This document shows positions 38,098 through 64,000 of a DNA stretch of 64,000 nucleotides, in pieces (position 1 is the first letter of the stretch; each line of letters opens with the position of its first letter). Source of the DNA: Paenalcaligenes faecalis (GTDB taxonomy: Bacteria > Pseudomonadota > Gammaproteobacteria > Burkholderiales > Burkholderiaceae_B); contig NZ_CP106841.1 in assembly GCF_027557445.1 (NCBI RefSeq), positions 2,342,001-2,406,000 on the forward strand, in the 5' to 3' direction. The notes below the pieces were generated by a model. That model was not told where the DNA came from. It was given only the letters and a program-made list of their open reading frames with translations, and did not search any database. Position numbers and translations under genes: made by a program.

Positions 38098-38538
38098 TTA
38101 TTCCTCGACGCGATTCTCTGCGATCAATCGACGCAACGTGGCTTTAAGTGCCGTCACATCTAAAGGTTGTAGACGGCGCACCACCTCATCCTCATGTTTT
38201 TTAGCTTCTTCAATTAGACCGGAAATCAAATACTTTCCGGTCTCCGTAATTTCGACCAAAGTCACCCGTCTATCACCGTTATGAGCCACTCGATGCACAT
38301 AACCGGCTTGAACCATCTTATCCACCACACGTGTCACCGTGGGCTGCTTGCTGGTTGCTATACGCGCCAAATGTCCCACACTCACTACTCCAGCACCTGA
38401 AAGTGTAGAAAGCACGCGCCACTCGGTAATCGAAAGGCCATTTTTCTGTACTACCTGATGGAACTCCGTCGAAATAATTTGGCTGGCCTGCGCCAGAAGA
38501 GCAGGTAAATAATTGTCCACAAACACGGATTCTGTCAC
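38098..38538 (-). CDS. MarR family transcriptional regulator (first of two)
   Basis: The 146-residue protein has the MarR winged helix: ITEWRVLSTLSGAGVVSVGHLARIATSKQPTVTRVVDKM (helices 3-4, about residues 35-75) and the beta wing RVAHNGDRRVTLVEITETG. It is divergent from iorA across a 214-bp region and probably controls that unit and itself, with an aromatic or CoA-thioester ligand. A second MarR lies at 42670-43188, downstream of iorB. Confidence 0.85.
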   Translation of the reverse strand: MTESVFVDNYLPALLAQASQIISTEFHQVVQKNGLSITEWRVLSTLSGAGVVSVGHLARIATSKQPTVTRVVDKMVQAGYVHRVAHNGDRRVTLVEITETGKYLISGLIEEAKKHEDEVVRRLQPLDVTALKATLRRLIAENRVEE

Positions 38539-38752
38539 TACTCACACCCTACTCATAGAAAAATTAAGCAATAAATAATTATAAATCGGCTTAACTATAC
38601 CTAAGCCTTGCTGCCAAGTCTTTGATCCGATGAAAAAATAAGCATTATAGGGAAAACCATTAGGATTGATATGTTGAGTTCTAAATATATTCATATGAAA
38701 ATAATAGGTATTCATTGATCACAATAATTCGCAGTACCACAAGGAGGACAAC
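38539..38752. promoter_or_regulatory. Divergent MarR/iorA control region
   Basis: This 214-bp AT-rich stretch must hold promoters for both directions. At 38687-38702 lies an imperfect inverted repeat ATATTCA-ta-TGAAAAT resembling a MarR-type 16-bp palindrome and the perfect repeat found at 50284-50299. A strong ribosome site (AGGAGGACAAC) precedes iorA. Core promoters cannot be fixed by eye. Confidence 0.45.
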
Positions 38753-40981
38753 ATGGCAGAACGTTCATTTGTCGAGGAAGTCAAAAAACTACGTCTAGGA
38801 GACGGAGAGGTCTTTAGCGGTGAAGGTATTCTTGCTGTCACCAAAGCGCTATTGGAATCGGGTGTCTCTTATGTTGCTGGTTATCAAGGTGCGCCTATTT
38901 CGCACTTGATGGATGTGTTGGCAGATGCCCAAGATATTCTGACTGAACATAATATTCGTTTCGAGAACAGTGCCTCTGAAGCCACGGCTGCTGCCTCCTT
39001 AGCTGCGTCGGTGAACTACCCACTACGTGGCGCAGTTACTTTTAAAGCGACAGTAGGTACAAACGTAGCTTCTGATGCATTGGCTAACTTAGCCTCTGGT
39101 GGGGTCAAGGGTGGCGCACTCATTATCGTGGGTGAAGACTACGGCGAGGGCTCCTCCATCATGCAAGAGCGTAGCCACGCCTTTGCCATGAAATCTCAAA
39201 TGTGGATGCTAGACCCTCGCCCAAACCTGCCTTGCATTGTGCAAGCTGTCAAAGACGGTTTTGATTTATCCGAAGCCAGTAACACGCCCGTTATGCTGCA
39301 ACTACGTATACGTGCCTGTCACGTACATGGTCAGTTCGTGGCTTCGGATAACAAACGAGCAACCTTCTCGTTAAAAGATGCCATGGAGCAACCCACTCGC
39401 GATCTAGATCGGATTGTGCTGCCTCCTGCGAGCTTCTTACACGAAAAAGAAAAAATCGAACATCGCTGGCCTGCCGCGATTAAATTCATCGAAGAGCGTC
39501 AACTGAACGAATTCTTTGGTGATGATACGGATGATGTTGGTCTGATCGTCCAAGGGGGTGGCTACAACAGCGCCATTCGAGCCCTAGAACATTTGGGGCT
39601 TGCTGACGTATTTGGCGAGTCAAAAATACCACTGTATGTCATGAACGTGGCCTACCCATTGATTGACTCCGAGTTACATCGTTTCTGCGAAGGCAAACGT
39701 GCTGTATTGGTTCTAGAAGAAGGTCAACCTAACTTTGTAGAGCAAAACATTGCCTCTATTTTAGGTCGCGCCAAATCCAATACGGAACTACACGGCAAAG
39801 ACTTTTTACCTATGGCGGGTGAGTACAACACCCAAACCATGCAAAAAGGAATCCGTGCTTTCTTAGAGCACTATGGTCGCATTGAGCCTATTCCAGCCCC
39901 TAAACCACGAGTAGTAGCACGAACCGAAGACACAGGCAAACCACGCTCTGTAGAAATTAGCCAATTAAATGACGCTGCCCCTGCTGTAGTCGAAGCCGCT
40001 GACGTCATACCAATGGGTACACTGGATGAAAACGTCCATTCCCGTCCCCCTGGGTTCTGTACTGGTTGCCCAGAGCGCCCTATTTTTACAGCCATGAAGC
40101 TTGTAGAGCGCGAACTAGGCGAACATCACGTCAGTGCCGATATTGGCTGTCACCTGTTCTCTATTTTGCCGCCTTTCAACCTCGGTAACACCACGATGGG
40201 TTATGGCTTAGGTGGTGCAGCAGCCTCTGCCTTGAACACCAGCACCTCAGACAAACGTGCTATTTCCATCATGGGTGATGGCGGTTTCTGGCATAACGGG
40301 TTAACTAGCGGTATTGCTAACGCCGTGTTTAACCAAAGCGATAACCTCACCATTGTGATTGACAATAACTACACGGCCGCTACCGGTGGTCAAGACATCT
40401 TGTCATCCAAAGCCAAAAATGAAACACGCAGCACCGGTCACTTAATCGAAAAAGCAGCTCGTGGTGTGGGGGTTAACTGGTTACGGACAGTAAAACGAAC
40501 CTACGACCTAAAAACCATGACGGCAGACTTACGCGAAGCCCTAACCACAAAGGTTAAAGGCCCTAAAGTCATCATCGCCCAAAGCGAATGTATGCTGAAT
40601 CGTCAACGTCGTGAGCGCGGCCAAGTCCGCAAAGCCGTAGCAGCAGGCGAGCGTGTAGTTCGCGAACGTTTTGGCGTAGACCCTGATACCTGTACGGGCG
40701 ATCACTCATGTATTCGCTTGTCGGGCTGCCCTTCTCTCTCTATTCGTCCTAATCCAGATGCACTGCGCACTGACCCCGTTGCGACCGTGATGAACAGCTG
40801 TGTAGGTTGTGGTTTGTGTGGCGAAGTCTCTCACGCCGCGATTTTATGCCCTTCCTTTTACCGTGCACAAATCATCAGTAATCCGACCGGCATGGATAAA
40901 TTCCGAGAAAAACTACGCCGTGGTGTCATCGGTTGGTTCCAACGCCGCAATGCCGCTAAACGCGAACAGTACGCATTCTAA
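38753..40981 (+). CDS. iorA: Indolepyruvate ferredoxin oxidoreductase alpha subunit-like (2-oxoacid oxidoreductase)
   Basis: The 742-residue protein is longer than archaeal IorA (about 620-640). The N-terminal half resembles the pyrimidine-binding domain (SGVSYVAGYQGAPISHLMD). The TPP-binding domain carries GDGGFWHNGLTSGIANAVFN with IDNNYTAATGGQ (about 505-545). The C-terminus has ferredoxin-like cysteines (CTGDHSCIRLSGCP, CVGCGLCG..CP). It decarboxylates a 2-oxoacid to an acyl-CoA with electrons to ferredoxin. In this cluster the most fitting substrate is an aryl 2-oxoacid such as isatinate; indole-3-pyruvate is the textbook alternative. iorB follows by 21 bp. Confidence 0.88.
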   Translation: MAERSFVEEVKKLRLGDGEVFSGEGILAVTKALLESGVSYVAGYQGAPISHLMDVLADAQDILTEHNIRFENSASEATAAASLAASVNYPLRGAVTFKATVGTNVASDALANLASGGVKGGALIIVGEDYGEGSSIMQERSHAFAMKSQMWMLDPRPNLPCIVQAVKDGFDLSEASNTPVMLQLRIRACHVHGQFVASDNKRATFSLKDAMEQPTRDLDRIVLPPASFLHEKEKIEHRWPAAIKFIEERQLNEFFGDDTDDVGLIVQGGGYNSAIRALEHLGLADVFGESKIPLYVMNVAYPLIDSELHRFCEGKRAVLVLEEGQPNFVEQNIASILGRAKSNTELHGKDFLPMAGEYNTQTMQKGIRAFLEHYGRIEPIPAPKPRVVARTEDTGKPRSVEISQLNDAAPAVVEAADVIPMGTLDENVHSRPPGFCTGCPERPIFTAMKLVERELGEHHVSADIGCHLFSILPPFNLGNTTMGYGLGGAAASALNTSTSDKRAISIMGDGGFWHNGLTSGIANAVFNQSDNLTIVIDNNYTAATGGQDILSSKAKNETRSTGHLIEKAARGVGVNWLRTVKRTYDLKTMTADLREALTTKVKGPKVIIAQSECMLNRQRRERGQVRKAVAAGERVVRERFGVDPDTCTGDHSCIRLSGCPSLSIRPNPDALRTDPVATVMNSCVGCGLCGEVSHAAILCPSFYRAQIISNPTGMDKFREKLRRGVIGWFQRRNAAKREQYAF

Positions 40982-41002: not shown

Positions 41003-42511
41003 ATGCAAGTAAAACCAATTAAAATCGCAATTTTAGCAATGGGTGGTGAAGGCGGTGGCGTATTAGCTAACTGGATCGTCGCCTTGGGTGAAAATAATGA
41101 TTACGTTGCCCAAACCACCTCTATCGCTGGGGTGGCCCAACGTACTGGTGCCACCATTTATTACGTTGAGCTTTTTCCAAAAAGCCAAATGAAAGATGGC
41201 AAAGTCCCCGTTTTAGCCTTGATGCCTACACCAGGTGATGTGGATGTGGTGATGGCTTCCGAGCTAATGGAAGCCGGACGCGCGGTACAACGTGGCTTTG
41301 TAACGCCTGAGCGCACTACCCTTATTACCTCCACGCACCGTGTCTATTCCATTGCCGAAAAAACCGCAATGGGTGACGGTCGTGTAGATAGCGAAGCCCT
41401 AATCGAACATACCCGCGCTGCAGCCAAACAATACATTCATTTTGATATGGCACAAGCCGCTGAGGACTCTGGCAGTGTAATTAGTGCAGTCCTATTTGGT
41501 GCCTTATCCGCCTCTGGCGTCCTGCCCTTTAGTCGTGAGCAATTCGAACAAACGATTGAACGAGGTGGAGTTGGCGTTAAACCTAGCCTACGTGCATTCT
41601 CTAATGCCTATGCTCGTGTGGGCAATGATGGCGCAGCGGACGAGCAAACCGATGCCAAAACCATTGATGTTGCATCCGTTCAGCCCAAAAATCCTAAAGT
41701 CGCAGCCTTAGTGGATCGGGTACGCAACGAATTCGCTGCCGATGCGCAGTCTATTATTCTTGAGGGTGTACGTCGCCTCATTGATTTCCAAGACCTAGAC
41801 TACGCCCAACTCTATATAGATCGTTTAGCCAAAGTACAGCGCCAAGCACACGCTGACGATACGGCTCTCATCCGTGAAACGGGACGTTTTTTAGCGTTGT
41901 GGATGTCTTTTGAGGACGCCATCCGTGTCGCTGAACTCAAAACACGTAGTAGCCGTTTTGAGCGTGTACAAAACGAAGTACGCCTCGATGAAGGTCAAAT
42001 TTTGACTATTAACGAGTACATGCACCCTCGGGTTGAAGAGATCAGTGAAATCTTACCGTGTAAAAAACTAGGACGCTGGTTACTTAAACCTAGCTCATTA
42101 GGACACAAAACGCTCAGCAAGTTCACCACCGAAGGCCGCGTCATACGCACCAGCTCACTACGTGGCTTTATGTTGCTCAATACACTAGGTGGCTTAAAGC
42201 GCTGGCGTCGTAAAACACTGCGCTACGAAGTCGAGCAAGAGCGTATTGAAAAATGGTTAGATCGCATTGCTGCCAATGCCTCTGCTCACCCTGCCTTAGC
42301 GCTTGAAATTGCGCGTGCGCAGCGTTTGGTTAAAGGCTATGGTGATACCCATTTACGTGGTCTAAAGAATTTCCATACCGTAATGGATGCCTTAGACCGT
42401 AACGCAAATCGCGTGTCTCCCCATATTCTACAGACCATGCGTGATGCCGCCTTAGCTGACGAGCATGGCAAAGAGCTAGAAAAAGTGCTTAAACAGCACG
42501 CTTTAGCTTAA
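41003..42511 (+). CDS. iorB: Indolepyruvate oxidoreductase beta subunit-like, with extra C-terminal domain
   Basis: The 502-residue protein starts with the 2-oxoacid oxidoreductase gamma/beta domain (AILAMGGEGGGVLANWIVAL, then TTSIAGVAQRTGATIYYVEL, about 5-200) and adds a long C-terminal region (about 230-500; RLAKVQRQAHADDTALIRET and related), resembling the DUF6537-type extension of proteobacterial IOR subunits. Classical IorB is about 200 residues. It forms the CoA-binding part of the complex with IorA. The extension suggests the proteobacterial aerobic/denitrifier branch rather than the archaeal form. Confidence 0.85.
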   Translation: MQVKPIKIAILAMGGEGGGVLANWIVALGENNDYVAQTTSIAGVAQRTGATIYYVELFPKSQMKDGKVPVLALMPTPGDVDVVMASELMEAGRAVQRGFVTPERTTLITSTHRVYSIAEKTAMGDGRVDSEALIEHTRAAAKQYIHFDMAQAAEDSGSVISAVLFGALSASGVLPFSREQFEQTIERGGVGVKPSLRAFSNAYARVGNDGAADEQTDAKTIDVASVQPKNPKVAALVDRVRNEFAADAQSIILEGVRRLIDFQDLDYAQLYIDRLAKVQRQAHADDTALIRETGRFLALWMSFEDAIRVAELKTRSSRFERVQNEVRLDEGQILTINEYMHPRVEEISEILPCKKLGRWLLKPSSLGHKTLSKFTTEGRVIRTSSLRGFMLLNTLGGLKRWRRKTLRYEVEQERIEKWLDRIAANASAHPALALEIARAQRLVKGYGDTHLRGLKNFHTVMDALDRNANRVSPHILQTMRDAALADEHGKELEKVLKQHALA

Positions 42512-42669: not shown

Positions 42670-43188
42670 ATGAAGCAAGACGCAGCAACGCTTGACGAGG
42701 TACTAGAGCAAAATCAAGACAGTGGTTACGAGGGCCGTTTAAGCCCTAAAGACCCAGCTAGCCTACGCTTGTGGCTACGTTTAATGACTTGTACCAAACA
42801 AATCGAGGACGAAATCCGTCGTCGCCTACGGGCTAATTTTGATATTTCATTGGCTCGATTTGACTATATGGCGCAACTGTATCGCTACCCAACAGGCCTA
42901 AAAATGGGGGAACTATCCCGCTATTTAATGGTGACGGGTGGCAACGTAACCGGTCTAACCGACGAGCTATCTCGCGAAGGCCTTGTGTCTCGTGAAAGCA
43001 GTCCCACCGACCGCCGTGCTTGGCTTCTACGCTTGACCCCTAAAGGCAAAAGTACTTTTGAGTTAATGGCTAAACAACACAACCAATGGGTTGCCGAGCT
43101 ATTCGAAGGCCTAGATCACGACACCATAGAGCTCGTGCATCAGCATTTAGGACAACTACGTGTGCACTTATTAACCTTAATCAAATAA
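42670..43188 (+). CDS. MarR family transcriptional regulator (second)
   Basis: The 172-residue protein has the MarR fold with ISLARFDYMAQLYRYPTG, GELSRYLMVTGGNVTGLTDELSREGLV (recognition helix about residues 75-100) and the wing SPTDRRAWLLRLT. It has a longer N-terminal extension than the first MarR. Position in the centre of the catabolic cluster, behind heavily repeated DNA, suggests it is the main ligand-responsive regulator of the cluster. MarR-type control of auxin-degradation loci is known in other plant-associated proteobacteria; equivalence here is inferred. Confidence 0.87.
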   Translation: MKQDAATLDEVLEQNQDSGYEGRLSPKDPASLRLWLRLMTCTKQIEDEIRRRLRANFDISLARFDYMAQLYRYPTGLKMGELSRYLMVTGGNVTGLTDELSREGLVSRESSPTDRRAWLLRLTPKGKSTFELMAKQHNQWVAELFEGLDHDTIELVHQHLGQLRVHLLTLIK

Positions 43189-43303: not shown

Positions 43304-43744
43304 ATGGGATCAAAGCTGTACACAAGTGAACACCGTATCCGTTTTTCCGAATGCGACCCCGCTGGCATCGTTTTCTACCCACAATACTTTGTATTGTTTA
43401 ATGACCTCCTAGAGCAATGGATTGACTCCATGCTTCCTGAAGGTTTTAGCGGTTTAATTGCACACAATAAAGTGGGCATGCCTACCGTTAATCTGCAAGC
43501 CGATTTCCGCTCTATCAGCAAAATGGGTGATGATGTTGTGCTCAGCCTTGGTGTTAAGAAAATCGGCAGCCGCTCCTTGCAATTACGTTTGCAATGTGTA
43601 GGCAAAGATGATGTTTTACGTATGGAAGTGCAACAAGTGATTGTCACAACCTCGCTTGTAACCCACCAAGCCATCGAAATTCCTGAATACCTTCGTACTC
43701 CCATGCAAGATTACTTGCTGGCCGACGAAGAAATCACAGCATAA
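43304..43744 (+). CDS. Hotdog-fold acyl-CoA thioesterase (4-hydroxybenzoyl-CoA thioesterase-like)
   Basis: The 146-residue protein has the 4HBT active-site segment RFSECDPAGIVFYPQYF (catalytic Asp in DPAG near residue 18) and the expected length. It should hydrolyse an aromatic CoA thioester. In context the substrate would be the hydroxylated anthraniloyl-CoA or gentisyl-CoA formed by the adjacent monooxygenase/reductase fusion, delivering a free acid to the cupin dioxygenase. It lies just upstream of that gene, separated by a promoter-like region. Confidence 0.85.
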   Translation: MGSKLYTSEHRIRFSECDPAGIVFYPQYFVLFNDLLEQWIDSMLPEGFSGLIAHNKVGMPTVNLQADFRSISKMGDDVVLSLGVKKIGSRSLQLRLQCVGKDDVLRMEVQQVIVTTSLVTHQAIEIPEYLRTPMQDYLLADEEITA

Positions 43745-43892: not shown

Positions 43893-46208
43893 ATGAAAAT
43901 CGTATGTATTGGTGGAGGCCCAGCTGGCCTATATTTTGGCCTGCTGATGAAATTGCAAAACCCCGAAAACGACATTGTGATCGTAGAGCGTAATCGCCCA
44001 TACGATACCTTTGGCTGGGGCGTGGTGTTCTCTGACGCCACAATGGAGAACTTGCGAGCCGCTGATCCTGTATCAGCACAAACCATTGGTGATGCATTTA
44101 ACCACTGGGATGATATCGAGACACACTACAAAGGCCGTGCTATCCGTAGCAAAGGTCATGGGTTTATCGGTATAGGTCGTAAAAAACTATTAAATATTCT
44201 ACAAGCTCGCTGTGAAGAAGTCGGCGTAGAACTCGTATTTGAAACCATCGTAGAAGACGAAGTCGAAATCGCACGTAAATACAATGCAGATTTAGTCATC
44301 GCCTCCGACGGGATCAATAGCCGTATCCGCAACAAATACCCAGAAAGCTTCAAGCCCGATATCGATGAACGCAATTGTCGCTTTGTGTGGTTAGGCACGA
44401 AAAAAGTCTTTGATGCCTTTAACTTTATTTTTGTAGAAAATGAGCACGGCTGGTTCCAGGCTCATGCCTACCGCTTCGAAGATGGCCTATCTACGTTCAT
44501 TGTAGAAACCCCGAACGAAACATGGGAAAAAGCTGGCATTGAAAACATGAGCCAAGAAGAAGGCATTAAGTACTGCGAAGAACTTTTCGCGCCGTACTTG
44601 GATGGCAATGAGCTCATCAGCAATGCATCACACCTACGCGGCTCTGCCATCTGGATTCGTTTCCCGCGCGTTATCTGTAACGAATGGGTACATTGGGAAA
44701 ATGTAGACGGCAAAAAAACGCCATTTGTATTGATGGGTGATGCGGCTCATACCGCACACTTCTCCATTGGATCTGGTACTAAACTGGCTCTAGAAGACGC
44801 CATCTCTTTGGCTGAGCATCTACAAAACGATGCCTCCCTAGAAGAAGCCCTAGAGCAATACGGTAAAGTTCGCGGTGTAGGCGTACTACGCATCCAAAAT
44901 GCAGCACGTAACTCAACCGAATGGTTTGAGAACGTCGCACGTTACGCCAATATGGCCCCAGAGCAATTCACTTACTCTATGTTGACTCGCTCGCAGCGTA
45001 TCTCCCACGAGAACCTACGCTTACGTGACGCAGAGGGCATCGAGCAATTTGAACGTTGGTTTGCCAATGATGCTGGGATGAACTTGGCGGCAAATCAAAC
45101 GCCTCCTCCACCCATGTTCACACCGTACAACTTACGTGACATGACGCTTAAAAACCGTATCGTTTTTGCGCCTACCCTTACCTACTCCGCCACCGATGGA
45201 ATGACCAACTCCTTCCATCAAACACACTATGGCGCTCGCGCTTTAGGTGGTGCTGCCTTGGTTATGGCCGAAATGACAGCCGTTACTGCTGATGGTCGTG
45301 TGACCCCTGGTTGTACCGGTCTCTGGAATGACGATCAAACCGCGGCCTGGGCTCAAGTTGTAAAAACAGTACAAGACAGCGGCGCACAGATGGGCATACA
45401 GCTAGGTCATGCTGGTCGTCGTGGCTCTAAACAGGTCGGCTGGGAAAAAGCCAACAAACCACTTGCCTCGGGCAACTGGGATCTGATTTCTGCTTCTGCT
45501 CTTGCTTATGATGCTGACAGCGCAACACCTGCCGAAATGAGCCGAGCCCAAATGGATCAAATCCGTGACGCATTTGTTGCCGCCACTCAACGTGCTGATG
45601 CTGCTGGTTTTGACTGTATCGAACTACAAGCAGCCCAAGGCTACCTACTATCTAGCTTCATTTCACCTCTAACGAATCAGCGTAACGACGAGTTTGGTGG
45701 CAGCCTAAGCAATCGCATGAAATACCCCTTAGAGGTCTTTAACGCGATGCGCGCTGTTTGGCCAGAAAACAAACCAATGATGGTTCGTATCTCTGCAACA
45801 GATTGGGCAGACGGTGGTACAACCGTAGACGAAGCCGTCGAGATCTCACGTCTATTTAAAGCAGCAGGCGCTGATTTAGTGGATGTGTCCAGTGGCGAGG
45901 TTGTGGCCGATCAACAACCTATTTATGGTCGTATGTATCAAACCCCCTTTGCTGATCGTATTCGCAACGAGGCAGGTATTGCCACAATGGCCATCGGCTC
46001 CATCATGGAAGCCGACCATGCCAATAGCATTATTGCAGCAGGTCGCGCTGATCTTTGTGGTTTATCTAGAGGCTTTTTAGCCAATCCAAACTGGCCACTA
46101 CACGAAGCGGCAAAACTGGGTTATCACGACATCACTTGGCCTAAACAGTATCGTTGGGGTCAAGACTGGCTAGAACGCAACGAAAACCGCCCTGTACTAA
46201 AAGGTTAA
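43893..46208 (+). CDS. Bifunctional FAD monooxygenase / old yellow enzyme fusion (2-aminobenzoyl-CoA monooxygenase/reductase or salicylyl-CoA 5-hydroxylase type)
   Basis: The 771-residue protein joins an FAD monooxygenase (about 1-380; IGGGPAGLYFGLLMK, IASDGINSRIR, LMGDAAHTAHFSIGSG) to an OYE-type FMN domain (about 400-755; LKNRIVFAPTLTYSATDG, QLGHAGRRGS, FISPLTNQRNDEFGGS). This architecture is known for 2-aminobenzoyl-CoA monooxygenase/reductase (Aromatoleum/Azoarcus) and for salicylyl-CoA 5-hydroxylase. It hydroxylates the CoA-bound ring at C5; the OYE half may then reduce it. Anthraniloyl-CoA is the best-fitting substrate if IorAB makes it. The gene is followed 11 bp later by the cupin dioxygenase. 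Confidence 0.9.
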   Translation: MKIVCIGGGPAGLYFGLLMKLQNPENDIVIVERNRPYDTFGWGVVFSDATMENLRAADPVSAQTIGDAFNHWDDIETHYKGRAIRSKGHGFIGIGRKKLLNILQARCEEVGVELVFETIVEDEVEIARKYNADLVIASDGINSRIRNKYPESFKPDIDERNCRFVWLGTKKVFDAFNFIFVENEHGWFQAHAYRFEDGLSTFIVETPNETWEKAGIENMSQEEGIKYCEELFAPYLDGNELISNASHLRGSAIWIRFPRVICNEWVHWENVDGKKTPFVLMGDAAHTAHFSIGSGTKLALEDAISLAEHLQNDASLEEALEQYGKVRGVGVLRIQNAARNSTEWFENVARYANMAPEQFTYSMLTRSQRISHENLRLRDAEGIEQFERWFANDAGMNLAANQTPPPPMFTPYNLRDMTLKNRIVFAPTLTYSATDGMTNSFHQTHYGARALGGAALVMAEMTAVTADGRVTPGCTGLWNDDQTAAWAQVVKTVQDSGAQMGIQLGHAGRRGSKQVGWEKANKPLASGNWDLISASALAYDADSATPAEMSRAQMDQIRDAFVAATQRADAAGFDCIELQAAQGYLLSSFISPLTNQRNDEFGGSLSNRMKYPLEVFNAMRAVWPENKPMMVRISATDWADGGTTVDEAVEISRLFKAAGADLVDVSSGEVVADQQPIYGRMYQTPFADRIRNEAGIATMAIGSIMEADHANSIIAAGRADLCGLSRGFLANPNWPLHEAAKLGYHDITWPKQYRWGQDWLERNENRPVLKG

Positions 46209-46219
46209 GGAGACACATC

Positions 46220-49392: not shown

Positions 49393-49427
49393 CAAAACCA
49401 TACAAAATACAAAAAATGGAGACTACC

Positions 49428-50264: not shown

Positions 50265-50283
50265 CGTCTAATGGTTTTCCATT

Positions 50284-50317
50284 ATATTCTTGAGAATATA
50301 TTGATTACTAAACTATT
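50284..50317 (+). promoter_or_regulatory. Promoter/operator of the Rieske-dioxygenase unit
   Basis: ATATTCT-tg-AGAATAT (50284-50299) is a perfect 7+7 inverted repeat. It is followed by TACTAAACTATT (50306-50317), shared with the upstream regions at 42571 and 57187. The stretch TGAGAAT.TATT.A..A.TAAACTATT.AC aligns here with 57171-57201. Probable MarR operator plus -10 (TAAACT). Confidence 0.55.
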
Positions 50318-56414: not shown

Positions 56415-57143
56415 ATGACTACCCCTTATACCGTTGTTATCACTGGTGGCAGTGCCGGAATCGGTGCTGATCTCTGTCAGCACTATATTGAAAAAGGCTA
56501 CACCGTCATCTCTCTAGCCAGAAAAACGCTCAGCTGGACACACGAGCGCTTAATACAGATACAGGTCGATTTACTTGACGAGACCGCTACAGAGCAGGCC
56601 GCCGCAGACATTGCTGCCCACTATGATGTGACTCACTTTGTACATAATGCCGGTGTTATTTGGCCCAACTTAATTGATGAAGTAAAAATCAGTGAGCTAC
56701 AAGGCTTAACCCAAATTCATCTAGGGGCGGCCATTCAAATCATGCAAGCCATCCTACCCGCTATGCGTCAAAAGCAATTTGGTCGCGTAGTCTTAATGTC
56801 CTCTAGAGGCGCTCTTGGCTTACAAACACGCACAGCGTATTCGGCCACCAAAGCAGGCATGATCGGTATGGCACGCACATGGGCTTTAGAACTCGCTGAC
56901 CAAGGCATCACGGTAAACGTAGTTGCCCCTGGCCCAATTCAAACCCCTATGTTTTATGACGTAGTGGAAGCGGGTAGCGAACGCGAGCAAAAACTAGCAG
57001 CGAGTATCCCTGTTAAACGCCTAGGTCGAGCCGATGATATTACCCGTGCGGTTAGCTTTTTTGCAGATCCAGACAATAGCTTTGTAACAGGCCAGACGTT
57101 GTATGTTTGTGGTGGCGCCAGCGTAGGCACACTCACCATTTAA
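56415..57143 (+). CDS. Short-chain dehydrogenase/reductase (first)
   Basis: The 242-residue SDR has TGGSAGIG (cofactor, about residues 10-17), NAG (VHNAGV), the catalytic Ser in MSSRGALG, YSATKAG (Tyr-Lys) and the PGP loop. It is the last gene of the ligase/thiolase unit. A role in oxidising or reducing a hydroxy-indole intermediate is likely; the step is unknown. GGAGAC precedes the ATG. Confidence 0.88.
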   Translation: MTTPYTVVITGGSAGIGADLCQHYIEKGYTVISLARKTLSWTHERLIQIQVDLLDETATEQAAADIAAHYDVTHFVHNAGVIWPNLIDEVKISELQGLTQIHLGAAIQIMQAILPAMRQKQFGRVVLMSSRGALGLQTRTAYSATKAGMIGMARTWALELADQGITVNVVAPGPIQTPMFYDVVEAGSEREQKLAASIPVKRLGRADDITRAVSFFADPDNSFVTGQTLYVCGGASVGTLTI

Positions 57144-57275: not shown

Positions 57276-57788
57276 ATGGACAATGACTTACCTGGCATGC
57301 AATTAGTGCGTAGCCAAGGCGGACTGGTACGCACACTAGAAATCACTCTTGATGCGCTATGCGTCATCTTATTAATCTTGATGACTGGCATCACGACCAT
57401 TGATGTGGTCGGACGCTACTTATTTCATTCGCCCTTACATGGGGCCTACGAAAGCAATGAACTGCTATTAGGCATATTAGTCTTTGCAGCCCTACCTCGG
57501 GTGACGTGGCATCAACAACACCTGACAGTCACCGTTTTAGACGCCTGTCTTGGGGCTTCTTTCCGTCGCATTCAACAGAAATGTTTGTCCTTGATCTCTG
57601 CGGTAGGACTGGCCATTTTGAGCTATTTTCTGTGGCAACACGGCATGCAGTTAGCTGACTATGGCGACATGAGTAATGCCTTGCAGGTTCCCATTGCTCC
57701 CTTTGCTTTTGCTATTGCCATTTTTACCGCTATTTCCTCTTTAGCGGCATTTATGCACCTATTTGTATCACCACGCCCACAGTCCTAA
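57276..57788 (+). CDS. TRAP transporter small permease (DctQ-like)
   Basis: The 170-residue protein has four membrane segments and the DctQ-type pattern (GITTIDVVGRYLF in segment 1 and a YESNELLLGILVF stretch). It forms the small subunit of a TRAP system with the large permease and binding protein encoded downstream. GGAGACAAC precedes the ATG. Confidence 0.9.
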   Translation: MDNDLPGMQLVRSQGGLVRTLEITLDALCVILLILMTGITTIDVVGRYLFHSPLHGAYESNELLLGILVFAALPRVTWHQQHLTVTVLDACLGASFRRIQQKCLSLISAVGLAILSYFLWQHGMQLADYGDMSNALQVPIAPFAFAIAIFTAISSLAAFMHLFVSPRPQS

Positions 57789-57805
57789 GCCCGAGGTAAT
57801 TTGAT

Positions 57806-59095
57806 ATGTTAGTTTCTTTAATTGGCTTGGCCTTTTTACTGTTTAGCCTATTTATTGGCTTGCCCATTGCATGGGGCATGTTGTTGGTGGGTACGATAGG
57901 CTTTAGCTATTACACCGGCTTCGAGGCCGCCTACACCATGGCAGCACAAACCGCCTTTGATACCGGCATGAGCTATAGCTTTACGGTGCTGCCTCTCTTT
58001 ATTTTGATGGGTAATTTGGTTACCGCCTCTGGCTTATCAAGAGACCTATACACCGCTGCTAATGCCTTTATTGGTCACCTACGCGGTGGCTTAGCAATGG
58101 CTACCATTATTGCCTGTGGCTCTTTTAGTGCGCTCTCTGGCTCCAGTATGGCTACCACCGCCGCCATGAGCCGAGTCGCCATGCCGAACATGCGCAAATA
58201 CAACTATGACGACCGCTTAGCCACCGGTAGTATTGCTGCTGGAGGCACCTTAGGGATTCTGATCCCTCCCAGCGTCATCATGGTGGTGTATGGCATTTTG
58301 ACTGAAACCGACATTGGTAAGCTCTTTGCCGCTGGCTTTCTGCCTGGTTTCATCGCCATGCTGATGTACCTATTAACCATCGTGGTTCTCACCACCCTCA
58401 ATCCAAAACTTGGTCAGCCCGGTGAAAAAAGCTCCTGGGCACAACGTCTACACGCAACCAAAGGCGTTTTTGCCATCACCGTGTTATTTATTGTGATTAT
58501 GGGGGGTATTTATGGGGGTGTATTTACCCCTACCGAAGCCGCAGGCATCGGGGCATTTTGTACCTTTTTAATCACTTTCAAACGTCGTGGCTGGCAGCCT
58601 AAGCTCTATCTAACCGTATTGGTTGAGGCCGCCCAAACAACCGCCATCATGTTTGCTTTGGTGATCGGGGCTTTAATCTTTACTAACTTTCTCACTGTAG
58701 CGGGCTTACCCAATCAACTGCTTGAGTTTATTAACGGCTTAGACATGTCACCACTCATGGTGATCTTTATGATCTGCCTTATTTACTTGGTCTTAGGCTG
58801 TTTTTTAGAAACCATGTCAATGGTGATGCTCACAGTACCCATTTTCTACCCTATTGTGGCCTCTCTTGGATTTGATCTGGTTTGGTTTGGCATCATCGTG
58901 GTGGTTGCTGCCGAAATCAGCCTCATCACCCCACCATTAGGTTTAAATATTTTCATGATTAAAAATGTGATGCCTGATATTCCGCTACGTACCGTTATTT
59001 ATGGTGTTAGCCCCTTTGTCATCACAGATATTATTCGCCTGGCTATCTTGGTTCTGGTGCCTTGGATTGTGCTGGTGGTCCCCAACAGCATGTAG
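57806..59095 (+). CDS. TRAP transporter large permease (DctM-like)
   Basis: The 429-residue protein has about 12 hydrophobic segments and DctM hallmarks: GFEAAYTMAAQ, the FSALSGSSMATTAAMSRVAMP loop, GGTLGILIPPSVIMVVYGI, GGIYGGVFTPTEAAG and ITPPLGLNIFMIK. It is the Na+-driven transport channel. The cargo in this cluster is likely an aromatic acid such as indole-3-acetate, not C4-dicarboxylates; that is inference from context. Confidence 0.93.
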   Translation: MLVSLIGLAFLLFSLFIGLPIAWGMLLVGTIGFSYYTGFEAAYTMAAQTAFDTGMSYSFTVLPLFILMGNLVTASGLSRDLYTAANAFIGHLRGGLAMATIIACGSFSALSGSSMATTAAMSRVAMPNMRKYNYDDRLATGSIAAGGTLGILIPPSVIMVVYGILTETDIGKLFAAGFLPGFIAMLMYLLTIVVLTTLNPKLGQPGEKSSWAQRLHATKGVFAITVLFIVIMGGIYGGVFTPTEAAGIGAFCTFLITFKRRGWQPKLYLTVLVEAAQTTAIMFALVIGALIFTNFLTVAGLPNQLLEFINGLDMSPLMVIFMICLIYLVLGCFLETMSMVMLTVPIFYPIVASLGFDLVWFGIIVVVAAEISLITPPLGLNIFMIKNVMPDIPLRTVIYGVSPFVITDIIRLAILVLVPWIVLVVPNSM

Positions 59096-59142
59096 TCGTA
59101 GTTCTTAACATTATCAAAAAAAGCTATATTTGGAGTAGACAA

Positions 59143-60174
59143 ATGAAATTAATTAAACGCTTAGGGGCCTGTTTAGGCTTAGGTTTAGCCGCTGCTATTA
59201 CCCCCCTCAGTGCGCAGGCCGAAGACACCGTCTTACGTTTTTCAAACTGGCTCCCACCCGCTCACTACATCGTCAAAGAGATGCTAGAACCATGGGCAGC
59301 TAAAGTAAACGAGGTCACCGAAGGCCGAGTCAAGGTTGAATTCATTAATCCTCTTGGCAAACCACAAGCCCACTTAGACTTAGTGCGCAATGGGGTAGCC
59401 GATATGGGTATGTCCGTTCACAGCTACACAGCCACCCGCTTTCCCTTAATCGAATTTGCAGAGCTCCCCTTCACCATCGAAGATGGCGGCATTAACTCGG
59501 TGGCTTACTGGCGCACCTACGAAAAATTCATGATGGAGGCCGATGAGCATCGTGGCGTTAAACTAATGGGTGTGTGGACCAGCCCAGCCACCGTCATCTT
59601 TACCAATAAAGACGAAATCAAAAACGTGGATGATCTAAAGGGTCTAAAACTACGCTCTCCTAGCCCGTTGTTTGACAGTATTGGTAAAGCCATGGGCATT
59701 GTTACTGTTAACGCCCCCGCCTCTGAAAGCTACGAAATGCTGTCGCGCGGTGTAATTGACGGTTTATATTTCCAGTACGACCAAATCGAAAACTTTAAGC
59801 TTGACAAACTCATTAAAAGTGCTGTTGCTGTACCAGGTGGCTTTGGCAAATCGAGCCAATACATGTTCATGAATGAACGCAAATGGAAATCCATTAGCGA
59901 GGCTGATCGTGCCGCTATTGAGCAAGTTTCTGGCGAATACATTGCCCGTGACTTTGGTGCTAAATGGCAGCAAGCCGAAGTTAACGCCACAAAGAACCTG
60001 ACAGATGCAGGTCTAAAAACCTACCATGTCGAAGGCGCGGAACTAGACAAGCTAAAGGCTGACTTAGCCTTTATTGAAAGCGATTGGATCAAAGCCGCCG
60101 ACAAGAAAAAAATCGACGGTCAAGCTGCTCTTGATTTCTACAGAGCACAAATCGAGGCCCTAAGCAAAGAATAA
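59143..60174 (+). CDS. TRAP transporter substrate-binding protein (DctP-like)
   Basis: The 343-residue protein has a signal peptide (KRLG.. hydrophobic.. AQA/EDT) and the DctP pattern with HYIVKEMLEPWAAKVNEVTEGRV, the LKGLKLRSPSPLFDSI region (Arg that binds a substrate carboxylate) and SRGVIDGLYF. ATG 59143 follows GGAGTAG; an earlier frame start at 59062 would overlap the DctM gene. It captures the substrate in the periplasm. Terminator follows at 60199. Confidence 0.92.
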   Translation: MKLIKRLGACLGLGLAAAITPLSAQAEDTVLRFSNWLPPAHYIVKEMLEPWAAKVNEVTEGRVKVEFINPLGKPQAHLDLVRNGVADMGMSVHSYTATRFPLIEFAELPFTIEDGGINSVAYWRTYEKFMMEADEHRGVKLMGVWTSPATVIFTNKDEIKNVDDLKGLKLRSPSPLFDSIGKAMGIVTVNAPASESYEMLSRGVIDGLYFQYDQIENFKLDKLIKSAVAVPGGFGKSSQYMFMNERKWKSISEADRAAIEQVSGEYIARDFGAKWQQAEVNATKNLTDAGLKTYHVEGAELDKLKADLAFIESDWIKAADKKKIDGQAALDFYRAQIEALSKE

Positions 60175-60226: not shown

Positions 60227-60469
60227 TTTGCCGCATTCTCAAAATCATCAAAATACTATAAACCTAAATTAAATTTAATACTTTAGTATCAATAACTTAT
60301 AAGAAAAATCTCATTGAAATAGATTTTTTTCACTGGGGTTTTCCCTAGAAATATCAAGTATTTGCACTAATTGGATACGCGTTGCTAAAACTGGATAGAC
60401 CATAAAAAACAACACACATACCATCTAAATCATTCACAACTAAACAATATAAATGAGGTGGAGACAACA
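60227..60469 (+). promoter_or_regulatory. AT-rich promoter region of the outer-membrane protein/StyA unit
   Basis: This 243-base stretch holds no gene. It is AT-rich; ACTAAACAATAT (60439-60450) is similar to the ACTAAACTATT motif of the other units, followed by a strong ribosome site (GGAGACAACA). Two further AT-rich blocks (near 60265-60330) could hold a -35/-10 pair but I see no clear match. Confidence 0.4.
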
Positions 60470-61369
60470 ATGGCAACACAAAAGAAATCAACCTTAGCCA
60501 TTGCCTGTGGGGCGCTACTGCTACTTAGCTCAAGCGCCACCATGGCAATTGAGGGTAATGGGCTACCCATTTATCCTGATGGCTTGGAATCTTACATGTC
60601 AGGAGCCTTACCTGGCCCAGGAGTACATCTACTGATGTATGGCGGTGCAATGCGTTACAACTCAGTACGCGATCACAGCGGAGACAAAATCCCCGTCCCC
60701 GGTTTCAAAGTGGATGTTGCCATGGTCGCACCTCGTGTGGTCTGGGTTACCCCTCAGCAAATCGCCGGTGGACAGCTCGCTTTCCATGCCTTATTCCCCT
60801 TGTTAACCGTTAAAGAACAAGCCATGGGATTAAGCAAACGTCGTAGTGGCTTGGGCGATATCGCCTTTGGCCCAGCCTTGGGCTATCACTTTAGTGATGC
60901 GGTGCATGCCGTTGTAGGGGTGGACTTTGTCGCTCCCACCGGTCGCTACAAAAAGGGCGAAATGGCGAATCTAGGGCGCAACTACTGGACCATACAACCT
61001 GCCGCTGCCTTTACTTATACACAACCTAGTGGCATTAACTTCGACCTAAAAGCCATGGTTGATTTCAATATGCGTAACAGCGATACCCGCACTCGTACTG
61101 GTCACGCCATCCATGCCGACTACGCGTTAGGCTACGGCTTTGGCAATGGCTGGGTAGCTGGCGTAGGTGGTTATGCCTATCAACAATTTCAAAAAGACAG
61201 CGGTCCATTCGCTGGAGACGGCAAAGCCAGATCATTTGGTTTTGGCCCAACTGTGCGCTATGCCAATCCCAATGGCTGGCTCTTTACTGCTAAATGGCAA
61301 CAAGACTTTGGTGTACGCAGCCGTCCCAAAGGTCATCAACTCTTAGCTAAAGTCGCTATTCCTTTTTAA
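60470..61369 (+). CDS. MetA-pathway-type outer-membrane protein (SphA-like channel)
   Basis: The 299-residue protein has a signal peptide (KKSTLAIACGALLLL.. ATMA/I) followed by beta-strand alternation with many aromatic girdle residues (GVHLLMYGGAMRYN, DIAFGPALGYHF, FGFGPTVRY). It ends in F (KVAIPF), as outer-membrane barrels do. The family (meta-pathway of phenol degradation) is often found in aromatic-acid loci and may take up hydrophobic substrates. ATG 60470 is chosen after GGTGGAGACAACA. Confidence 0.82.
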   Translation: MATQKKSTLAIACGALLLLSSSATMAIEGNGLPIYPDGLESYMSGALPGPGVHLLMYGGAMRYNSVRDHSGDKIPVPGFKVDVAMVAPRVVWVTPQQIAGGQLAFHALFPLLTVKEQAMGLSKRRSGLGDIAFGPALGYHFSDAVHAVVGVDFVAPTGRYKKGEMANLGRNYWTIQPAAAFTYTQPSGINFDLKAMVDFNMRNSDTRTRTGHAIHADYALGYGFGNGWVAGVGGYAYQQFQKDSGPFAGDGKARSFGFGPTVRYANPNGWLFTAKWQQDFGVRSRPKGHQLLAKVAIPF

Positions 61370-61392: not shown

Positions 61393-62181
61393 ATGAAAGG
61401 CTTAAAAGATAAAGTATTTATCGTTACCGGTGGAGCGACACGTATTGGCGCTGGTGTTGTCGATGTATTGCGTAGCTATGGCGCTCGTGTAGCTGTGTTT
61501 GACATTGATGCCACAGGCGGTGCTCAAGTGGTTGGCACAGATGCCAGCACAGCTCGCTTCTGGCAAGTTGATATTACTGATGATGAGGGCATTGCCTCTG
61601 CAACACAGGCCGTGCAAGACCATTTTGGTCGCGTAGACGGTCTAGTCAATCTAGCTTGCTCCTACCTAGACGAAGGGCTCAATTCCAGTCGTAAGGACTG
61701 GCTAACAGCATTAAACATTAATGTGGTGAGCAGCGTTGAAATGAGCAAAGTTGTACGCCCATTTATCAAGCAGCAAAACGGCGGAGCCATTGTTAACTTC
61801 ACCTCTATCTCCTCCTCAATTGCTCAAACAGGTCGTTGGCTCTACCCCGTCTCTAAAGCCGCTATTTTGCAATTAACACGTAGCTTAGCCATGGACTTTG
61901 CGGGCGATAAAATCCGTGTGAACTCCGTGTCTCCTGGATGGACATGGTCACGTGTTATGGACGAAATCACTGGGGGCGATCGGGCCAAAACAGATCGCGT
62001 TGCCGCCCCCTTTCACATGCTAGGTCGTGTGGGAGACCCAGAGGAGGTCGGCGAAGTCGTGGCCTTTCTCTTATCTGATGCAGCCAGTTTTGTGACCGGC
62101 GCTGATTACGCCGTGGATGGTGGTTATTCCGCCATGGGCCCAGAGCAAAATGTGCCTGCTATCCCTAAATTAGCCGAATAA
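61393..62181 (+). CDS. Short-chain dehydrogenase/reductase (second)
   Basis: The 262-residue SDR has TGGATRIGAGV (cofactor), a LVNLACSY in place of the usual NNAG, the active-site Ser in FTSISSS, YPVSKAA (Tyr-Lys) and PGW. The NAG motif is altered to NLA, yet the Ser-Tyr-Lys triad is intact. It lies between the outer-membrane protein and StyA-like genes and may oxidise a hydroxylated indoline product of the monooxygenase; this role is inferred. Confidence 0.86.
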   Translation: MKGLKDKVFIVTGGATRIGAGVVDVLRSYGARVAVFDIDATGGAQVVGTDASTARFWQVDITDDEGIASATQAVQDHFGRVDGLVNLACSYLDEGLNSSRKDWLTALNINVVSSVEMSKVVRPFIKQQNGGAIVNFTSISSSIAQTGRWLYPVSKAAILQLTRSLAMDFAGDKIRVNSVSPGWTWSRVMDEITGGDRAKTDRVAAPFHMLGRVGDPEEVGEVVAFLLSDAASFVTGADYAVDGGYSAMGPEQNVPAIPKLAE

Positions 62182-62219: not shown

Positions 62220-63464
62220 ATGCGTAAAATCGCTATTATTGGCGGCGGCCAAGCCGGGATGCCTGTCGCTTTTGGCCTACTAGATAAAGGCTACGAGGTA
62301 GCCCTGTACACCAACCGCACACCAGATCAAATTCGTGACGGTCGTGTCATGTCCAGCCAGTGTATGTTTGCGAATGCTCTAGATGTAGAACGTCGCCTTG
62401 GCATCAACTACTGGGAAGATGAATGCCCACCTGTAGAAGGCATTGGCTTTGCCCTGCCTAATCCGGATAAACCAGACACCAAAGCCGTGGACTGGAGTGG
62501 TCGCTTAGATCGCGTCGCTCAAGCCACAGACCAACGTATCAAAATGCCCGTCTGGATCGAAGAATTTGAAAAACGCGGTGGTAAAGTTATTTTTGAAGAC
62601 GTGGGCGTTGCCGAATTAGAACGTATCAGTAACGAATATGAACTCACTATCCTTGCCGCCGGTAAAGGCGAGGTCGTGCGTTTATTTGAGCGCGATGCCT
62701 CTCGCTCTCCTTATGATAAACCTCAACGTGCTTTGGCCTTAACCTATGTACATGGTCTAGAGCCCACTCCCGAGTACTCTCGTGTGTCATTTAACTTTAT
62801 TCCCGGTGTAGGCGAATACTTCGTATTCCCCTCTTTAACGCTATCCGGTCCCTGCGATATTATGGTATTTGAAGGTATCCCAGGCGGCCCCTTAGATCGT
62901 TTCCGTGATGCACAAAGCCCTCAGGAACACTTTGAACGCAGCCTTTCCTTCCTACAAGAATTCCTCCCTTGGGAAGCCGATCGTGCACGTAACTGTGAGC
63001 TAACCGATGCACAAGGTTATTTAGCGGGTAGCTTCCCTCCCACAGTACGTAAGCCAGTATTAACTCTACCTTCAGGTAATATTGTGTTAGGTATGGGCGA
63101 TGCGGTCGTCGTTAACGACCCAATTACTGGTCAAGGCTCCAATAACGCTGCAAAATGTGCACAAGTCTATTTAGACCGTATCTTAGAGCGTAGCGATCAA
63201 CCCTTTGATCGTGATTGGATGGAAGGCACCTTTGAAAAATACTGGGATTATGCCAATCGCGTAGTGTCTTGGACTAACTCCATGTTAGTGCCTCCTACCC
63301 CACAAGCACTCGCCTTATTAACTGGTGCTGAACAACACCCTGACCTTGCTCATTTTATGGCAAATGCTTTTGATAATCCGCCTGTGCTGTATCCTGCTTG
63401 GGGCGATTTATCCGAAGCCGAAAAGCTCATTCAATCTAAAGCAAACGTGCCCGCCACGGCGTAA
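62220..63464 (+). CDS. StyA-like FAD-dependent indole/styrene monooxygenase
   Basis: The 414-residue protein has the Rossmann start IAIIGGGQAGMPVAFGLL, LAAGKGEVVRLF in the middle, and the GMGDAVVVNDPITGQGSNNA box typical of the styrene/indole monooxygenase (StyA) group, which take reduced FAD from a partner reductase. It should epoxidise or hydroxylate the indole ring; StyA-type enzymes turn indole into indole oxide/oxindole. A flavin reductase gene follows by 27 bp. GGAGACC precedes the ATG. Confidence 0.88.
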   Translation: MRKIAIIGGGQAGMPVAFGLLDKGYEVALYTNRTPDQIRDGRVMSSQCMFANALDVERRLGINYWEDECPPVEGIGFALPNPDKPDTKAVDWSGRLDRVAQATDQRIKMPVWIEEFEKRGGKVIFEDVGVAELERISNEYELTILAAGKGEVVRLFERDASRSPYDKPQRALALTYVHGLEPTPEYSRVSFNFIPGVGEYFVFPSLTLSGPCDIMVFEGIPGGPLDRFRDAQSPQEHFERSLSFLQEFLPWEADRARNCELTDAQGYLAGSFPPTVRKPVLTLPSGNIVLGMGDAVVVNDPITGQGSNNAAKCAQVYLDRILERSDQPFDRDWMEGTFEKYWDYANRVVSWTNSMLVPPTPQALALLTGAEQHPDLAHFMANAFDNPPVLYPAWGDLSEAEKLIQSKANVPATA

Positions 63465-63491
63465 ATTTGTATTACCAAGGAGTATCTCATC

Positions 63492-64000
63492 ATGTCTACA
63501 CAGGCCACTATGGAACCCGAAAATGCTGTCAATTTGTTCGACAGTCGTGCATTTAGACAAGCCTTAGGCCATTTTCCTACTGGCGTTGCGATTGTTACCA
63601 CTCGCACCCCTGAAGGACGGCCTGTGGGCTTGACCATCAACTCCTTTTCCTCACTTTCCCTAGAGCCTCCCCTCATTATGTGGAGCCTCGTTAACCACTC
63701 GCCTAGCTTAGCTATTTTTGAAAACTGCAATTATTTTGCAATTAACGTCATTAGCCAAGCCCAAACCGAGGCAGCATTAGGCTTTGCTAACTCCAAAGTC
63801 GAAGATAAGTTTGCCCTGGTTTCACACGTAGATGGTGAGGATGGTGTGCCCCTAATTGACGATTGTGTCGCCACCTTTGTGTGTGAAAACTATCGTCAAC
63901 ACGAAGGGGGTGACCACACCTTATTTATTGGTCGTGTTGTACACCACAGCACTATCACTGAACACGAACCCGCCGTATTCCATCGCGGTAAGTTTGCTCG
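63492..64000 (+). CDS. Flavin reductase (StyB-like), cut off by the window end
   Basis: The reading frame from ATG 63492 stays open to the end of the window (169 codons and two bases, no stop). It has FPTGVAIVTTRTPEGRPVG, LTINSFSSLSLEPPLIMWSL, VATFVCENYRQHEGGDHTLF and IGRVVHH, matching the HpaC/StyB flavin reductase family. It should supply reduced FAD to the adjacent StyA-like monooxygenase. Because the 3' end is missing, length and next genes are unknown. Confidence 0.88.
   Translation, partial: MSTQATMEPENAVNLFDSRAFRQALGHFPTGVAIVTTRTPEGRPVGLTINSFSSLSLEPPLIMWSLVNHSPSLAIFENCNYFAINVISQAQTEAALGFANSKVEDKFALVSHVDGEDGVPLIDDCVATFVCENYRQHEGGDHTLFIGRVVHHSTITEHEPAVFHRGKFA

Follow-up and report, generated by a model that had tools for sequence, protein, structure and literature searches.

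The closest described relatives of the genes studied here are the iad auxin-degradation loci of Variovorax paradoxus CL14 and Bradyrhizobium (PMC9613470, PMC10374108, PMC12633357), the 2-aminobenzoyl-coenzyme A (CoA) monooxygenase/reductase of Azoarcus evansii (PMC4539516, PMC3534580), and the indole clusters of Providencia (PMC9871250) and Acinetobacter (iif, PMC12538310). In the published accounts, the iad pathway as printed stops at anthranilate (PMC9613470, PMC12633357, PMC11630574). A gentisate route from anthranilate, including a 5-hydroxylation, was described in Nocardia opaca (Cain 1968, as told in PMC4539516), and gentisate was reported in indole degradation by Alcaligenes In3 (Claus and Kutzner 1983, as told in PMC6221969). 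According to a 2018 review, the gene for a gentisate-type indole route had not been revealed (PMC6221969). We analysed a stretch of 64,000 nucleotides of Paenalcaligenes faecalis (contig NZ_CP106841.1, positions 2,342,001 to 2,406,000; hereafter the window), which from its position 38,098 onwards carries genes related to these iad, 2-aminobenzoyl-CoA, and indole systems in a single cluster. The first half of the route that this cluster would encode is a known pathway, and the second half appears to open an amino-substituted ring in a way not yet described.

The cluster shares with the iad loci IadCDE, a CoA ligase, a thiolase-like protein, IadI, dehydrogenases, and two MarR regulators, and as printed (PMC9613470, Extended Data Fig. 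4 legend) IorB and IorA had already been noted within such loci. It differs from them in its uptake system, a tripartite ATP-independent periplasmic (TRAP) transporter where they have an ATP-binding cassette-type protein, and in being linked to an indole module and to a complete lower route. With the Azoarcus evansii enzyme it shares the enzyme type, a flavin adenine dinucleotide (FAD) hydroxylase joined to a reductase, with anthraniloyl-CoA as the presumed substrate. In the window, however, the catalytic histidines of the old yellow enzyme (OYE) domain are replaced, and a thioesterase, a bicupin, an FAH-family enzyme, and a nitrilase are linked to the fusion instead of beta-oxidation genes. 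The indole clusters have in common with the window an IndA/IifC-type monooxygenase, a flavin reductase, and a short-chain dehydrogenase/reductase (SDR); the phenol-degradation-type outer-membrane protein told for the WHOP homologue of the iif-type cluster (PMC12538310) also has a counterpart here. Unlike in those clusters, an isatin hydrolase and IorAB follow and the auxin genes are joined, and we assigned no IifA. The Nocardia opaca and Alcaligenes In3 routes resemble ours in the gentisate-type cleavage, and the genus Alcaligenes carries the cluster. In the accounts cited above, no genes are assigned to those routes, whereas we place the loss of nitrogen after ring cleavage and can name candidates.

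The route that we propose, and that we consider moderately probable as a whole, leads from the iad and indole entries through isatin and anthraniloyl-CoA to 5-hydroxyanthranilate, and ends with a gentisate-type cleavage and the loss of an amide nitrogen. Its sequence basis is family membership, residues, gene order, and co-occurrence. At the auxin entry, IadCDE and an SDR (SDR1 is the candidate) would convert indole-3-acetate into dioxindole-3-acetate, IadF would form the CoA ester, and the thiolase-like/DUF35 pair would split dioxindole-3-acetyl-CoA by retro-aldol cleavage into isatin and acetyl-CoA. At the other entry, IndAB, SDR2, and an FAD protein would take indole to isatin, probably via dioxindole. 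The isatin hydrolase would then give isatinate (2-aminophenylglyoxylate), which IorAB would turn into anthraniloyl-CoA by oxidative decarboxylation. The FAD/OYE fusion, with its altered reductase site, would 5-hydroxylate anthraniloyl-CoA and leave the ring aromatic, and the 4HBT thioesterase would release 5-hydroxyanthranilate, whose C1–C2 bond the bicupin would cleave. Since C2 bears the nitrogen, the new terminus would be an amide. The FAH enzyme would split the product into pyruvate and maleamate (the C4 amide), the nitrilase-family enzyme would hydrolyse maleamate to maleate and ammonia, and a maleate isomerase homologue encoded elsewhere in the genome would yield fumarate. From isatinate onward all substrates are inferred, and so are the retro-aldol cleavage, the formation of an amide, and what the nitrilase does.

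The chemistry that would be new in this scheme is put forward more tentatively, as a real possibility: an undescribed aerobic route for the benzene ring of indoles in which a gentisate-family dioxygenase cuts 5-hydroxyanthranilate at the nitrogen-bearing carbon, ammonia leaves last through a nitrilase-family amidase, and the adjacent hydroxylases have repeatedly lost the ene-reductase His, with which the ring would lose its aromaticity. Our search of the open-access literature, with subscription journals mostly outside it, turned up no published assignment of these genes to the route. The cluster supplies named candidate genes for the gentisate-type route reported in 1968 and 1983, and the complete lower route occurs in cultivated Alcaligenes, Cupriavidus, Caballeronia, and Providencia, with the ring-opening part also in Ruegeria. 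If the route is true, the iad auxin pathway extends from anthranilate to fumarate, the iad "ketothiolase" is to be reassigned as an aldolase, and position 579 (Gln or His) tells to which of two anthraniloyl-CoA routes a given fusion belongs.

In OYE enzymes, a His-x-x-His/Asn pair binds the carbonyl group that is to be reduced. This pair, expected of a 2-aminobenzoyl-CoA monooxygenase/reductase, is absent from the window fusion: structure 7o0t shows His-x-x-His, and here both positions are Gln (579 and 582). The fusion exceeds the cut-off of the NCBIfam model NF006101, salicylyl-CoA 5-hydroxylase/oxidoreductase (1280 versus 1078 bits). In known fusions, hydroxylation of anthraniloyl-CoA is followed by reduction of the ring, and under NADH limitation 5-hydroxyanthraniloyl-CoA is released (as told in PMC3534580). 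We surveyed the first OYE catalytic position in 80 distinct fusions (59 of the 73 fusion places were read). Gln occupies it in 16, each with a window-type bicupin within 5 kb, whereas the other 64 have His and no such bicupin within 4.5 kb; the Soonwooa bicupin, 4.9 kb from its fusion and thus beyond the survey distance of 4.5 kb, was counted as linked. A further 19 fusions from relatives, examined after the rule had been set, comprise eight with Gln and a bicupin and 11 with His and none (24 genomes had a match, own included, and 19 besides our own were read, with flanks of 1.5 kb only). Taken together, position 579 is Gln in 24/24 fusions within 5 kb of the bicupin and His in 75/75 others read, most of the His-type stretches being too short to show a bicupin some 10 kb away and four of them (L080, L087, L136, L155; L and G labels denote our loci and genomes) having less than 0.5 kb of downstream stretch. 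In both annotated loci examined, the His-type fusions accompany enoyl-CoA hydratase and acyl-CoA dehydrogenase genes.

The residue columns were left out of a quick tree, whose starred branches force at least three separate His/Gln changes: in the main group (Alcaligenes, Cupriavidus, Caballeronia, Providencia, and Xenorhabdus), in Soonwooa, and in genome G706, the last two being long branches of this tree. A sign test on independent pairs had just three pairs to work with, too few for significance. We read Gln at 579 as a probable loss of ring reduction where the enzyme that follows needs an aromatic ring.

The bicupin scores below the gentisate dioxygenase cut-off of TIGR02272 (309 of 442 bits). 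H142, H144, and H183, which we take to be its iron ligands, are invariant in all 44 aligned rows. A residue filter between this type and ordinary gentisate dioxygenases let five positions pass, among them Glu184 (mostly Asp in the others), which adjoins an invariant His; we do not press this. Providencia, Xenorhabdus, Cupriavidus, and Caballeronia share the run iorA–iorB–thioesterase–fusion–bicupin–FAH–nitrilase, and the next gene there encodes a homologue of maleate cis-trans isomerase (4fq7, E 1.5e-97). Plasmids of Ruegeria, Leisingera, Sulfitobacter, Sagittula, and Shinella, as well as Embleya (Actinomycetota), have an uninterrupted block of nitrilase, bicupin, FAH, and isomerase genes, and in Soonwooa (Bacteroidota) the parts of the lower module lie within about 20 kb, beside indAB and with no iad genes seen. 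In our own genome (C1:141834) and in Alcaligenes faecalis the isomerase homologue is unlinked.

We grouped the survey rows by genome into 31 bicupin loci. FAH adjoins the bicupin in 31/31, and an isomerase is present in 19/31. A nitrilase of at least 60% identity is present in 23/31 (eight of the 31 loci were themselves found through a nitrilase search), and in 22 of these 23 it starts within 1.2 kb of the bicupin. A search of the phylum with the bicupin alone was positive in 12 of 398 genomes, with a close nitrilase in five, a distant one in three, and none in four. As a control, 12 loci of ordinary gentisate dioxygenases (32–38% identity), examined with flanks of 1.5 kb (0.7 kb on one side of one locus), had no nitrilase (0/12) and no fusion (0/12), and an FAH in 9/12. 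By its motifs the nitrilase has an intact Glu47, Lys132, and Cys166 triad, which presumably is catalytic.

These data bear on the explanations that compete with late nitrogen loss. The main one has 5-hydroxyanthranilate or its CoA ester lose the amino group first; the ring would then be opened by a bicupin acting as an ordinary gentisate dioxygenase, with the FAH enzyme as maleylpyruvate hydrolase and the nitrilase otherwise employed. It would agree with the route of Cain as told in PMC4539516 and with the gentisate of Claus and Kutzner as told in PMC6221969, the maleate isomerase fits it equally well, and it would account for the bicupin loci that lack a nitrilase. Yet we recognised no deaminase among the cluster genes, the bicupin stays below the gentisate dioxygenase cut-off, and the nitrilase, which recurs beside this bicupin and never beside the 12 ordinary enzymes, is left unexplained; we consider early deamination rather unlikely. 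A salicylate module that merely adjoins an auxin locus, running from salicylyl-CoA via gentisyl-CoA to gentisate, is a very improbable reading of the lower half. The NCBIfam match of the fusion points that way, but the same model name covers His-type fusions beside acyl-CoA dehydrogenase and enoyl-CoA hydratase genes. Moreover, the lower module accompanies IorAB, and often isatin hydrolase, across phyla, and the sole CoA ligase of the cluster belongs to the iad block.

The nitrilase might instead make auxin from indole-3-acetonitrile, so that the cluster would begin at a plant nitrile. Its intact Glu-Lys-Cys motif set and its closest PDB matches, which are nitrilases and cyanide dihydratases, would suit this role, and the sequence-only reading of the window had likewise listed it as an auxin-route gene. 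The gene is nevertheless kept beside bicupin and FAH in iad-free stretches of Providencia, Xenorhabdus, Cupriavidus, Caballeronia, Soonwooa, and Ruegeria. We therefore set the auxin-forming role aside, as one with little probability.

For the route with cleavage at the nitrogen-bearing carbon, several observations weigh on the other side. The nitrilase is missing at five of the 31 bicupins (a Cupriavidus taiwanensis plasmid, G559, G575, G688, and G696) and is a distant one (33–36%) at three; its residues fail to tell an amidase from a nitrilase; a 54% relative in Polaromonas does not adjoin a cupin, and neither does a 44% relative in Bosea. The window holds no linked maleate isomerase. Among the 12 bicupin genomes of the phylum set, four have a Gln-type fusion adjoining the bicupin and eight have the fusion elsewhere; seven of these eight were read and all are His-type, the one in G472 lying 29 kb from the bicupin. 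The His-type fusion of G696 (L161), another of the seven, is 9.2 kb from a window-type bicupin and becomes an exception if the limit is set at 10 kb. Since His-type fusions occur in bicupin genomes, the bicupin does not need a Gln-type fusion and the two are not strictly linked; its substrate can come from other enzymes. Further upstream, as reported in PMC12633357, a Variovorax deletion strain makes anthranilate again when given nine genes, iadC-K2, without iadA and iadB. IorAB is thus not the sole route, and the view in the sequence-only reading that the pathway runs without free anthranilate is left unsupported. Variovorax without iadI accumulates C8H7NO2, the formula of dioxindole and not of isatin (same source), and the retro-aldol step is therefore unproven. 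Providencia rettgeri is reported to form salicylate and catechol from indole, with a catechol route proposed (PMC9871250), at odds with our route in that genus. Finally, the auxin-contact residues of MarR1, described below, are equally kept in clusters without visible auxin genes; being non-specific, they were dropped as proof of auxin sensing.

The junction between the two halves lies at isatin. The cyclase is closer to solved isatin hydrolases (5nmp, E 1.5e-117) than to the arylformamidase model (33 of 223 bits). The best 80 of at least 564 isatin-hydrolase matches, all in named loci, were examined for an IorA gene within 10 kb: 44 of all 80 have one, as do 39 of those 56 loci for which at least 9.5 kb is available on both sides. 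IorA scores below the equivalog cut-off for the alpha subunit of indolepyruvate:ferredoxin oxidoreductase (302 versus 650.9 bits) and is classed as IorAB-like only. IorAB-type enzymes turn 2-oxoacids into acyl-CoA. Because isatinate is an aryl-glyoxylate, anthraniloyl-CoA would be their natural product here.

By its sequence, the upper half is an iad-type auxin locus. The Rieske alpha subunit aligns with Variovorax IadD (9o71, E 2.5e-184) without gaps over 443 residues; it retains all seven published Rieske and iron ligands and eight of the nine published auxin-pocket residues, the exception being L211, which is Q (residues taken from PMC10374108). Homologues of IadC, IadE, IadF, IadG, and IadI stand together in one block. 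MarR1 matches Variovorax MarR structures, and of the seven contacts to indole-3-acetic acid in MarR_73 (7kfo, the complex with this ligand) six are identical, V65 being replaced by I. The IadD, MarR, and isatin-hydrolase matches bear out the earlier outline of an iad-type route that passes through isatin and handles side chain and ring as CoA esters. As to its remark that an IacA-type start is missing, we recognised no IacA-like gene among the cluster genes, the genome at large not having been searched for one.

A paralogue of IadD in the same genome departs at two of the nine pocket residues (F251N and K322H). It belongs to a second Rieske system on contig C1 (2270045–2276088; L011 8045–14088), 44% identical to IadD. 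SDR2 and the FAD protein both have homologues beside it, and genes for a periplasmic binding protein and an isochorismatase-family protein are there too. This system is perhaps for a neutral indole.

The pair formed by the thiolase-like protein and its DUF35 partner is present as the sequence-only reading had listed it, but the former lacks the thiolase catalytic residues. At the thiolase catalytic positions, including the site of the nucleophilic Cys, stand the stretches GGASG, GQAG, and SGFG; the nucleophilic Cys and the catalytic His/Cys are missing, and GGACG replaces GGASG in 2/20 relatives. The nearest structures are thiolase-fold proteins, the Ltp2 aldolase 6ok1 among them, and a YDDY motif (Y282-D-D-Y) is found in 20/20 aligned sequences. 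Like the steroid side-chain aldolases Ltp2-ChsH2 and Sal-Shy, the window has a thiolase-like protein with the Tyr of a YDxx motif and a DUF35 gene directly next to it; the motif there is YDHF in Ltp2 and YDCY in Sal instead of YDDY (PMC12329534), and the substrate proposed here is dioxindole-3-acetyl-CoA. From these features we infer that the pair may carry out the retro-aldol cleavage of this ester to isatin and acetyl-CoA. The published account (PMC12633357) assigns a ketothiolase role to IadG and that of an alcohol dehydrogenase to IadH. DUF35 is fused to an SDR domain in one of three related loci examined (L012; not L009 or L013), a fusion that might account for the name of IadH.

The StyA-like protein had been taken for a second auxin ring oxygenase, and this assignment does not hold. 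It matches 9lrq (585 bits) and 7z4x (536 bits), which we take to be indole enzymes, far better than styrene monooxygenase A (142 bits). In Providencia and Xenorhabdus, where the stretches show no iad genes, isatin hydrolase is surrounded by the matching set: this monooxygenase with IndB, SDR2, the outer-membrane protein, and the FAD protein. The monooxygenase and reductase of the Providencia rettgeri indole cluster were shown to oxidise indole (PMC9871250). The window would thus join two entries that converge at isatin. The statement that almost every gene falls in order on an auxin route is therefore kept in its auxin outline and revised for StyA/B, the nitrilase, and the thiolase; it had left the lower half unresolved.

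Several bicupin loci are arranged differently. In L224 and L227 (G559 and G575) the bicupin–FAH pair adjoins iorAB and iadCDE without a nitrilase. The pair of L224 is flanked by a Flavin_Reduct protein and by an acyl-CoA dehydrogenase, which could re-aromatise the product of a His-type fusion. In L225, L226, and L228 a distant nitrilase (33–36%, with CWEN instead of CGEN) adjoins the pair, which looks as though nitrilases had been recruited to this role on two occasions; L226 and L228 have a Flavin_Reduct protein as well. The gene of 215–217 amino acids beside the bicupin in L224, L226, and L228 was considered as a NicF-type maleamate amidase and rejected, its Pfam match being Flavin_Reduct with no NCBIfam match. 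On plasmids of Ruegeria and Sulfitobacter (L165, L170), nitrilase–bicupin–FAH–isomerase is divergent from iorAB–thioesterase–MarR–MarR, with no hydroxylase fusion within the 25 and 21 kb examined; the substrate may arrive there already 5-hydroxylated. On the Cupriavidus taiwanensis plasmid (L176), fusion–bicupin–FAH lies between transposase genes (including the IS66 family), with neither nitrilase nor iorAB within the 18 kb examined. In G696 (L229, L161), an exception to the strict separation, CoA ligase and SDR genes stand between the His-type fusion and the bicupin.

Every gene class listed for the window by the sequence-only reading was located at its place, with significant Pfam or NCBIfam matches (Table 1). 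All cluster genes are present in Alcaligenes faecalis AU14, in identical order and at 60–90% identity, in line with the synteny that had been suggested as a check; since the whole gene order recurs there, the cluster is not a chance assembly. In Alcaligenes sp. SORT26 the stretch examined, iorA to dctM, is kept at 59–90% identity. In the genus to which the window itself belongs, the hydroxylase fusion occurs in 8/11 genomes and IadD in 7/11 (own genome counted; several assemblies are incomplete).

Table 1. Genes of the cluster, in window coordinates.
Feature	Position	Strand	Basis
MarR1, IadR-like MarR regulator	38098..38538	-	best PDB 7kki and 7kfo
IorA-like thiamine pyrophosphate subunit (iadA-like)	38753..40981	+	TIGR03336 302 bits, cut-off 650.9
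IorB-like subunit with DUF6537 (iadB-like)	41003..42511	+	NF006179 705 bits, cut-off 348; Pfam POR and DUF6537
MarR2, second MarR regulator	42670..43188	+	Pfam MarR_2; best PDB 3boq
4HBT acyl-CoA thioesterase	43304..43744	+	Pfam 4HBT_2; member of conserved lower operon
FAD monooxygenase/OYE fusion	43893..46208	+	NF006101 1280 bits, cut-off 1078; Gln579/Gln582 in place of His-x-x-His
Gentisate-1,2-dioxygenase-like bicupin	46220..47347 (longest frame from 46154)	+	best PDB 3bu7, E 6e-176
FAH-family C-C hydrolase	47402..48325	+	Pfam FAA_hydrolase 236 bits
Nitrilase-superfamily enzyme	48337..49359	+	Pfam CN_hydrolase; motifs FPEVF, RHRKL, LACGEN
Isatin hydrolase (IadI-like cyclase)	49416..50213	+	best PDB 5nmp, E 1.5e-117
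IadC-like ferredoxin reductase	50271..51341 (start may be 50358)	+	Pfam Fer2 and NAD_binding_1
IadD-like Rieske oxygenase alpha	51352..52665 (longest frame from 51259)	+	best PDB 9o71, E 2.5e-184
IadE-like Rieske oxygenase beta	52698..53180	+	Pfam Ring_hydroxyl_B
IadF-like AMP-forming CoA ligase	53190..54818	+	Pfam AMP-binding; gene order as in other iad loci
IadG-like thiolase-superfamily protein	54818..55990	+	PDB 4u4e, 9myr, 6ok1; Y282-D-D-Y
DUF35 (zf-ChsH2/OB) protein, partner of thiolase-like protein	55987..56388	+	Pfam PF12172 and PF01796
SDR1 dehydrogenase	56415..57143	+	Pfam adh_short; adjoins iad genes in other loci
TRAP transporter DctQ, DctM, DctP	57276..60174 (DctP start probably 59143)	+	Pfam DctQ, DctM, DctP
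Outer-membrane protein, indole module	60458..61369	+	Pfam Phenol_MetA_deg; also in Providencia and Xenorhabdus indole clusters
SDR2 dehydrogenase, indole module	61393..62181	+	NF006121 409 bits; adjoins indA in indole clusters
IndA/StyA-like indole monooxygenase	62220..63464	+	PDB 9lrq E 9e-175, 7z4x E 6e-160; styrene monooxygenase 3ihm E 4e-40
IndB-like flavin reductase	63492..64000, continues to 64013	+	Pfam Flavin_Reduct

Past the end of the window, 16 bases after the end of the flavin reductase, begins the FAD protein, which is "phytoene-dehydrogenase-like" (64030–65616 in window numbering). The source genome has 2.73 Mb in two contigs. Measured in 4-kb steps, the G+C content of the window stays at 45–50% and does not change abruptly at the cluster. 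In the gap between the divergent MarR1 and iorA genes we noted a perfect palindrome, TTCATATGAA, at window positions 38690–38699, a possible operator that could also have arisen by chance in AT-rich DNA.

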